This document shows, piece by piece, positions 15,205 through 51,479 of a stretch of 51,479 bases of DNA. Position 1 is the stretch's first letter. Every line of letters starts with the position of its first letter. Below the pieces are notes generated by a model. That model was not told where the DNA came from. It was given only the letters and a program-made list of their open reading frames with translations, and searched no databases. The position numbers and the translations under genes are program-made. The stretch is from Prosthecobacter debontii (lineage in GTDB: Bacteria; Verrucomicrobiota; Verrucomicrobiia; Chthoniobacterales; Chthoniobacteraceae), in assembly GCA_945905735.1 (NCBI GenBank), contig CAMDQC010000017.1:1-51479 (forward strand). The letters are read 5' to 3'.

Positions 15205-15410
15205 TGCAGGCAAAGTGGCGCAGGGTGTCGCTTGGTGCAACCTCTGGAAACGTGAATTATTTGCCGAGTTTCCATCAATTTAAGTCCTAGCCGCTCAGAG
15301 ACCGGTATCGTACGCAGCCCATTGAGCGGTTGTCCGATGCGCTAAAGCGATGGTTTCAAGGCAGATAAAATAACTTTGCCGCTGCCGCGACTTCGATCGG
15401 TTCAATTCCG

Positions 15411-37941: not shown

Positions 37942-38009
37942 AGCGAGGCAGGAAAAAGATGCGCTCCACGGCGAAGTGTCGAGCTTCCCGTTTAGACTCT
38001 GGGCGCTTT

Positions 38010-38240
38010 GGGTGTGATTAAAAGTGGAATGCTGCTGGTAGTAGGACAGGCATCCTGCCTGTCGGAGTGGGATGGGCTTCCAGCCCGTCCAGTGTGACGT
38101 GTAGGAGGCTTTGCGGTGGCCTTTGAGAAGGGACGAAGGGAAACTGGACAGGCTGGAAGCCCGTCCCACTCCGACAGCCTAGAAGGCTGTCCTACTACCG
38201 TCGCGCTTCGCGCGCTTCCATTCCACTTTTAATCACATCC
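38010..38240. mobile_element. MITE-like element with terminal inverted repeats and 9-bp target duplication
   Basis: This 231-bp non-coding element ends in 22-bp inverted repeats differing at one base (core TGATTAAAAGTGGAATG, left 38010-38031, right 38219-38240). It is flanked exactly by the 9-bp direct repeat GGGCGCTTT (38001-38009 and 38241-38249), as expected for a target-site duplication. Inside, a 57-bp inverted repeat (38037-38093 and 38143-38199) matches at 50 of 57 positions and itself contains small hairpins such as GACAGGCATCCTGCCTGTC. No transposase is encoded, so movement would need an enzyme acting in trans. It lies between the PIG-L and 234-aa genes. Confidence 0.85.
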
Positions 38241-38249
38241 GGGCGCTTT

Positions 38250-38954
38250 TTAACTGATGAGGAGGAGGCGGGGCGGGTCGCCGGGGCGGGTGTCGGGGGC
38301 GCGGTGGATGCAGGGGGGGACGGGGCTGCCGGGCCAGTCCACGGCGATGCGCCAGAGGTTGCCGAGGCCGAAGGAGAAGGGTTGGGCGTCGGGGGTTGGG
38401 GCGTAGTGGAGGTCGTAGCAGTGGTCGGTGAGGTATTCGAGGAAGTCGTGGTCTTCTTCACCGCCGTGGAGTTTGAGGAGTTGGGCGCGGGTTTCGGGGA
38501 TGTCGATGCGGCGTCGGGCTTGATCGTTGCGGAGGCCTTCGCTGGGGAAGCCGTGGTAGGTGCAGAGCCAGGTCTCGGCTTCTACGGGGGCGCTGTCGGC
38601 GTGGAAGGAGAAGACGTGGGTGGGGATGGGGTCTTCGTCGCGGGGGTAGCCGTCGATGCAGTTGAGGATGGGGTCGAGGCCGTGCTCGCGGAGGAGTCGC
38701 TGGTCTTCGATGAGGATGTCGATGGCGGTGCGGCCCGCTGGGCTGAGGGGGAGGCTGCGGAGGAGTGCGTCGTCGAGTGTGTTGATGCCTGGGCTGATGG
38801 TGAGGTGCTGGATGATTTCGCGGAAGTCGCCGGGGAGTGTGCGGGGCCAGCAGAGGGCGTTGATGCCGTCTGCAAAAGGCGTGGTGACGAGTTCGTGGAA
38901 GCTGCTCACCAGTTTAATGCGTGGGTAGTCGGGCGGTAGAGCGAGATGAGTCAT
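38250..38954 (-). CDS. Hypothetical protein, possibly DUF1826-like
   Basis: The 234-aa protein has no signal or membrane helix. Segments INALCWPRTLPGDF, ETWLCTYHGFPSEGL and CIHRAPDTRPGDPPRLLLI recall the DUF1826 family, where a TY-G motif and an HR-P motif are conserved; I am not certain. Its stop codon abuts the right target duplication of the mobile element, so the element inserted just downstream of this gene without disrupting it. It diverges from the penicillin-binding protein gene. Confidence 0.6.
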   Translation of the reverse strand: MTHLALPPDYPRIKLVSSFHELVTTPFADGINALCWPRTLPGDFREIIQHLTISPGINTLDDALLRSLPLSPAGRTAIDILIEDQRLLREHGLDPILNCIDGYPRDEDPIPTHVFSFHADSAPVEAETWLCTYHGFPSEGLRNDQARRRIDIPETRAQLLKLHGGEEDHDFLEYLTDHCYDLHYAPTPDAQPFSFGLGNLWRIAVDWPGSPVPPCIHRAPDTRPGDPPRLLLIS

Positions 38955-39075
38955 AGGCGATGCGAGCAGTGGTCGGGGGAGGGAGGTGCTTTATGGGATG
39001 CGGGGTGCGATGGCAAGGGGAGGTGGTGGATTCTATGTTGCGCAACTATCGGCTGCGGCCCACTATGCGCCGCTC

Positions 39076-51137: not shown

Positions 51138-51310
51138 GGGCTGAAAGCCCGACAATGTAATAGCCCAGGGTGAAGCCCTGGGTCACAGACAATAAGAGAC
51201 CTTAGCCCTGAAAGGGCGACCCAAGGCGTGCGCCACGGTTTTGTCCCGCCCTTTCAGGGCTCCATTCTGTTTGTGCAGCCAACCCAGGGCTTCACCCTGG
51301 GCTATTACAT
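51138..51310. repeat. Nested palindromic intergenic repeat
   Basis: After coaX lies a nested structure. The outer arms are a perfect 29-bp inverted repeat (51155-51183 and 51282-51310; core TAGCCCAGGGTGAAGCCCTG). The inner arms are a perfect 15-bp pair (51204-51218, 51247-51261; AGCCCTGAAAGGGCG). A small hairpin GGGCT-GAA-AGCCC precedes them at 51138-51150. It encodes nothing and I see no target duplication. Such sequences resemble multi-copy REP/MITE-like elements. Confidence 0.8.
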
Positions 51311-51479
51311 CTCGCACCTTCGGCGCTCAAAAGGGAAACGCTGAATAAAGCGAGTTGAGCAGAGAAGCGCGAGGCAGGGTGGTAGTGAGTGGGGTTCTGA
51401 GGCGGAAAGTCATCGAGAAATTGCTGTTTTTGCCCCGTTTTGGTGCGATGCGGGCACGGTCAAGCCGTGAGGGCGAGCA
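51311..51479. other. Right edge, no gene seen
   Basis: No frame of useful length with a start and ribosome site is apparent in this 169-bp end. A short minus-strand frame from about 51413 (MTFRLRTPL, roughly 28 codons) lacks a ribosome site and is not called. Confidence 0.4.

Follow-up and report, generated by a model that had tools for sequence, protein, structure and literature searches.

A 231-bp Miniature Element with ISKra4-Type Ends and a REP-Like Palindromic Core in a Prosthecobacter debontii Genome

Introduction

Insertion sequences of the ISKra4 family (p-MULT 4) belong to the prokaryotic part of the Mutator superfamily, for which a survey gives terminal repeats of 18–39 bp ending in C and target duplications of 8 or 9 bp (PMC3942029). 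The same survey mentions Pack-MULEs, non-autonomous elements of the superfamily that carry foreign interiors. Bacterial MITEs are described as short, intergenic elements with inverted ends, a target duplication, a hairpin and little coding capacity (PMC10969869), and are usually explained as shrunken insertion sequences. REPs are imperfect palindromes with a GTAG tag, occurring in inverted pairs (REPINs) and beside REP-type transposase genes (PMC3733652, PMC3116915); GTAG-tagged repeats are known from Verrucomicrobia (PMC3733652), and insertion sequences that land in REPs are well known (PMC1525189). Two further systems are similar in part, namely the Tn3-derived TIMEs, which are likewise miniature, have ends in common and form mosaic derivatives (PMC4133298, PMC13367494), and a group I intron of Thiomargarita that is nested together with a MITE (PMC4853749).

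Here, we describe a 231-bp element in the window, by which we mean the whole stretch of 51,479 nucleotides that was analysed (contig CAMDQC010000017.1 of assembly GCA_945905735.1). The element and its family show the 8–9 bp duplications and the repeats of 18–39 bp with a 3′ terminal C of ISKra4 insertion sequences, and share their ends with such insertion sequences of two related genomes; they differ from these in that the 231-bp element has no transposase and an interior without clear similarity. In contrast to the bacterial MITEs described, one set of ends here encloses twelve types of interior within two genomes, and the interiors are REP-like rather than recognisable deletion remnants. Unlike the REPs and REPINs, the core is enclosed by the ends of a DDE transposon with target duplications. 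The likeness to Pack-MULEs is an analogy and not a membership, since the present elements are bacterial and hold palindromic repeats instead of gene fragments. TIMEs have Tn3-family ends, whereas the ends here are of the ISKra4 type, and the Thiomargarita MITE lies in a group I intron, whereas here group II introns lie in the palindromes of the elements.

The initial annotation of the window, made from the letters alone, had supposed that a family with these ends may be undescribed. This agrees with our search of the openly accessible full-text literature by title and start of abstract, which gave no description of ISKra4-derived MITEs, of REP cores inside such transposon ends, or of such repeats in Chthoniobacteraceae. 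The family is new, its mechanism is ordinary, and its make-up is unusually modular.

Results and Discussion

Structure and Setting of the Element

The element is flanked by two copies of the target-site duplication GGGCGCTTT, at 38001–38009 and 38241–38249 (both plus strand), which were read directly and agree at 9 of 9 positions. Inside the left copy lies the left terminal inverted repeat of 22 nt, GGGTGTGATTAAAAGTGGAATG (38010–38031, plus strand; read directly and recovered by repeat analysis), and inside the right copy its counterpart at 38219–38240 (minus strand), which is complementary at 21 of 22 positions (95%). The length between the duplications is 231 bp. Repeat analysis further placed two core arms of 57 nt each, a left one of GTAG-tagged, REP-like palindromes (38037–38093, plus strand) and a right one ending in CTACTACC (38143–38199, plus strand), which is an imperfect reverse complement of the left arm (88%). 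The spacer, or loop, between the arms (38094–38142) appears by eye to vary most between the three copies of this type. When folded as single-stranded DNA, the stretch 38001–38249 reached −89.1 kcal/mol, as compared with a mean of −39.7 kcal/mol (sd 3.5) for 200 shuffles, none of which was as good (z −14.1). The initial annotation was therefore borne out in its description of 22-bp inverted repeats with one mismatch, an exact 9-bp flanking direct repeat and a self-complementary pair of 57-bp arms. The longest reading frame lying wholly within the element encodes 38 aa, and two longer frames enter it from outside. Being short, free of a transposase and bounded by inverted ends, the element is a MITE.

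A subterminal GC-rich hairpin with GCGCTTCGCGC (about 38200–38218, plus strand) is present on one side only, as judged by eye, and the element is thus asymmetric, as had been noticed before. The accompanying suggestion that this hairpin may be an older insertion in the window copy did not stand: by eye, it is found in all three copies (3/3) of the 231-bp subfamily, and hence dates to the ancestor of the subfamily. A similar hairpin adjoins one terminus in the 217-bp elements (by eye).

Directly next to the right duplication lies the stop codon (TTA on the plus strand, 38250–38252) of a minus-strand gene for 234 aa with a weak match to Pfam DUF1826 (24.7 bits, cut-off 22), so that the insertion lies just past this stop, as first proposed. 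The PIG-L gene that had been placed close by is also on the minus strand (match 1.7e-15); its predicted ATG lies about 70 bp beyond the left end of the element, and the longest PIG-L frame starts with a GTG inside the element. The two neighbouring genes share the minus strand, so that transcription continuing from one into the other would yield the element as a long hairpin. Insertion upstream of promoters is described for some ISKra4 elements (PMC3942029); we therefore looked for a sigma-70-like promoter at the insertion, and found none. A long hairpin abutting a stop codon could suggest a retained regulatory structure between two genes, either a terminator or an mRNA stabiliser, instead of a mobile element, and one terminator-like site was indeed found on the minus strand at 38166–38146, as compared with a shuffle mean of 0.4 (sd 0.9). 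However, the element belongs to a family with multiple copies, which lie at other sites and are flanked by different duplications, and this makes the regulatory reading very improbable. As a mobile element, it may possibly still exert a side effect on the flanking genes through its hairpin.

Copies, Termini and Target Duplications

That copies should exist elsewhere in the genome and its relatives had been set as a test beforehand, and such copies were found. The genome to which the window belongs (5.19 Mb in 258 contigs, 93.5% complete) contains two further copies of the 231-bp type, on contigs C4 (96% identity) and C58 (84%), each with a perfect 9-bp duplication of a different sequence. In addition, they belong to a wider family. 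At up to three mismatches the terminus gave 103 matches in this genome, as compared with 19 in the reversed control, and at up to one mismatch 57 matches against none; for the congener G002 the corresponding numbers at up to one mismatch were 83 and none. Within this last limit the terminus was present in 10 of the 57 genomes searched, including that of the window.

Under a fixed rule (facing termini no more than 360 bp apart), we obtained 46 paired elements, 25 from the genome of the window and 21 from G002, drawn from the fetched loci of these genomes and not from every terminus. Perfect duplications of 8 or 9 bp flanked 17 of the 46 elements, 6 had near duplications and 23 had neither. When the flanks of different elements were paired as a control, 2070 combinations gave a single perfect duplication and a single near one. 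Duplications around other copies, whose lack would have told against the initial annotation, are thus found repeatedly. Two 101-bp elements (C20:45240 and C170:6999 of the genome of the window) share the right flank GGCGCGAATGGG and differ in their left flanks, as expected after recombination between copies or misassembly.

Empty and Unoccupied Sites

The comparison with an empty site in a related strain, proposed in the initial annotation, gave no such site for the insertion in the window: G002, the one close relative, has no clean empty site there. Its counterpart of window positions 37992–38250 (locus L249 on contig C13) is an intergenic gap with 685 bp of other sequence, whose first 21 nt are a piece (95%, E 2.5e-4) of an element of the 101-bp type. 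This space between the genes appears to have received insertions on more than one occasion.

Two other cases do provide evidence of empty sites. At 39010–39018 (plus strand), the window has a single ATGGCAAGG in a region that is about 94–96% identical to G002, in which the counterpart flanks ends of family elements on two contigs: contig C13 reaches ATGGCAAGG and then the left terminus, and contig C128 resumes with the right terminus, followed by ATGGCAAGG. Since the contigs that hold the two halves in G002 also differ in what lies beyond them, there has been a rearrangement or a misassembly as well. This does not alter the finding that the window has the site unoccupied. The second case is the copy on C4. 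Removal of the element and one duplication from the sequence of this genome restores a GTAG...CTAC palindrome pair, which shows that a REP-like pair was the target of this insertion. G002 lacks both the C4 element and the surrounding REP-like pair, and hence offers no empty site for the element alone. In this copy (C4:62470-62701, locus L002), palindromes are thus nested in a transposon, and the transposon in palindromes.

Complete Insertion Sequences with the Same Ends

Two related genomes contain full-length elements that combine these ends with a transposase, for which the initial annotation had proposed to look. G024, of the same family, contains two 1441-bp elements, one with an exact 9-bp duplication AAATGCGGA and the other without a duplication, and G005, of the same genus, contains a 1480-bp element without a duplication, so that the duplication is intact in one of the three complete insertion sequences. 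The ends are common to the 231-bp element and these insertion sequences over about 18 bases. The ends and the target duplication of the element thus match those of complete ISKra4-type insertion sequences of related genomes.

The transposases matched the NCBIfam ISKra4 model with 5e-56 and 191 bits (L131, G024) and 2.6e-55 and 188 bits (L179, G005), as compared with a curated cut-off of 205 bits. Sister families of the same superfamily, ISLre2, IS256 and ISH6, are also given duplications of 8–9 bp in the superfamily survey (PMC3942029), and both transposases do match ISLre2; mobilisation by one of these families would account for the duplications as well. However, the matches to ISLre2 were far weaker (1.6e-19 for G024 and 4.2e-17 for G005), and we regard this alternative as highly unlikely, the proteins being far closer to ISKra4.

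Among the 57 genomes, the ISKra4 model gave matches at E ≤ 0.001 in eight, none of them above the curated cut-off, and it also matched 2 of 14 control genomes. The terminus (up to one mismatch) and a transposase match occurred together in four genomes, the terminus alone in six and the match alone in four. Of 16 fetched loci that hold such a match, seven have the terminus at up to four mismatches beside it; two of these seven are partial copies in G002, one of them with stop codons. In the genome of the window itself (assembly 93.5% complete, 258 contigs), the search for an ISKra4 transposase gave no match at E ≤ 10, which suggests that the family may now be immobile there. A partner in the same genome is needless for past mobilisation, and its lack is therefore compatible with membership of the ISKra4 type.

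A distant relative, annotated as a UPF0236 family transposase-like protein, lies on a Gloeothece plasmid within a 1896-bp element that has inverted ends beginning GGGTGCGCTCAAAA (28/30) and a perfect 9-bp duplication. Two other plasmid-borne ISKra4-like elements were set aside as candidates: the one from Tolypothrix resembles the present elements only in the layout of its ends (GGGTGAACGAAAAAAGGTGTG) and has no duplication, and in that of TAV5 the left end has five mismatches and the right end was not found.

The ends, the duplications, the other copies and the full-length relatives therefore support the reading as a transposon that is non-autonomous and cleanly flanked by a 9-bp duplication, and we consider it very probable that the 231-bp element belongs, as a non-autonomous member, to an ISKra4-type family of the prokaryotic Mutator superfamily. 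It was presumably mobilised in trans by an ISKra4-type transposase. A DDE transposase of such an insertion sequence, residing now or formerly in the lineage, would have bound to the ends of 22 bp and transposed the element, producing the 9-bp duplication in the process.

Modular Interiors with REP-Like Cores

The interiors of the 46 paired elements fall into 12 types, comprising eight clusters and four singletons, and three pairs of types have a short stretch in common. G002 has a 71-bp element resembling a 289-bp one from which the core is missing, and another, of 292 bp, that combines two types. The usual origin given for bacterial MITEs would make the 231-bp element an ISKra4-type insertion sequence that was shortened by internal deletion and has since changed so much that it is no longer recognisable as such. 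The parent of the subfamily may be unsampled, and inner matches to the five insertion-sequence copies at E ≤ 1, none of them strong, were somewhat more frequent than in the reversed control (111 vs. 43). However, the best inner match had an E value of 0.011, as compared with 0.003 in the reversed control, and the interiors are palindromic, with relatives outside the termini. We consider an origin by deletion rather unlikely. The interior of the window element is a REP-like palindrome pair and not a recognisable leftover of an insertion sequence.

The core in the window consists of GTAG-tagged imperfect palindromes in an inverted pair, 38037–38093 and 38143–38199. Relatives of this core without a terminus pair (up to six mismatches, within 1.1–1.3 kb) were found in G009, G033 and G031. 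In G003, of the same genus, a 24-nt match (96%) to the core lies beside a REP-type transposase gene, which scored 69 bits with the model of REP-associated tyrosine transposases (cut-off 80), and similar GTAG-tagged palindromes are present on both sides of its transposase domain. We found no free-standing copies of the window core in its own genome, where the 14 of 21 candidates scored gave the three enclosed copies only; since the core is found there only within a transposon, we call it REP-like and do not file it as a REPIN. The genome contains 11 PF01797 matches to HUH transposase genes, 10 of them over the cut-off, and the window core had no match at any of the 11 loci. The cores of the 289-bp and 352-bp elements, on the other hand, strongly match repeats that flank, on either side, an IS200-like HUH transposase gene of the same genome, and a 68-nt piece of the 352-bp element matches a second PF01797 locus (below the cut-off).

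A REP-like core with relatives that lack these termini, in a genome with HUH transposase genes, might be taken as a REPIN whose movement is due to a REP-associated (HUH) transposase, with the outer inverted repeats being incidental. However, 17 of the 46 elements have a duplication exactly outside the ends, and the same ends enclose other interiors as well as complete DDE insertion sequences. HUH transposition is not known to leave target duplications of this sort. We give this explanation hardly any credence, and favour the ISKra4-type origin of the ends. Shells of shared termini are likely to have acquired REP-like cores and then spread as units. The cores may have entered either by insertion of a REP into a shell, or by the forming of new termini around a REP pair.

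As explained above, MITEs are commonly thought of as reduced insertion sequences; in the present family, one set of ends is combined with about a dozen palindromic interiors. Some of these interiors have counterparts beside HUH transposase genes, which provides an instance, open to testing, in which one transposon system carries the repeats of another. An extended hypothesis is that these are bacterial counterparts of Pack-MULEs, in which ISKra4-type shells repeatedly package REP-like palindromes of a different (HUH) system, two unrelated systems spread each other, and group II introns in turn insert at the packaged hairpins. We put this forward tentatively, and judge its chances to be slightly short of even. 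Shells with palindromic cores may explain part of the palindromic repeats, of the contig breaks and of the positions of group II introns in these genomes.

Group II Introns at REP-Like Palindromes

The genome of the window contains 15 copies of the 5′ end of one group II intron, all located at contig ends (C217, C178, C152, C47, C210, C118, C71 and C52, and further C191, C11, C112, C80, C45, C184 and C157). By eye, each of the 15 directly follows a REP-like palindrome. Eight lie inside elements with the termini described here, in cores of the 101-bp type. The remaining seven lie in other repeats, which bear a GTAG or GTGG tag; in two of the seven the flanks are almost the same and the intron sequence comprises just 22 bases. 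A 3′ end of an intron, matching domain V (RF00029), was also found inside an element with these termini. A search for group II intron proteins gave one weak match that is not linked to the 15 introns, and we therefore assign an intron class only tentatively, from position. Class C introns are described as inserting at terminators and attC hairpins (PMC4424553), and in P. putida two of nine group II introns are reported to lie in REPs (PMC1525189).

Acido-Lenti-1 and Further Repeats

The Rfam family Acido-Lenti-1 (RF01687) matched the window at 51283–51327 with 40.6 bits (threshold 37). Sub-threshold matches of 24–34 bits were found in the repeats on both sides of the IS200-like HUH transposase gene (L284, contig C6) and in the cores of the 289-bp and 352-bp elements (L008 and L064, contigs C10 and C44). 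In the search of the MITE loci at Rfam gathering thresholds, no family was found; microRNA names among the matches by E value were taken as chance matches to hairpins. These data suggest that Acido-Lenti-1, a candidate RNA, may in this lineage be a palindromic repeat that is mobile, or part of one.

Three further observations were made. At 15376–15398, the window has a 23-bp match (22/23) to the core palindrome of the 217-bp elements, with no termini nearby in the window. In G003 (contig C622, L210:824-2554), a single frame of 576 aa joins a REP-type transposase (residues 117–202) to a full RecF match (235–557), with a REP-like palindrome lying between the two matches. At the ends of contigs C10 and C82 of the genome of the window (L091 and L068), we noticed another repeat, beginning GGCTCCCCGCTGTTTAGAGTGG, which in C10 sits inside an element of the 217-bp type and is perhaps another mobile element.
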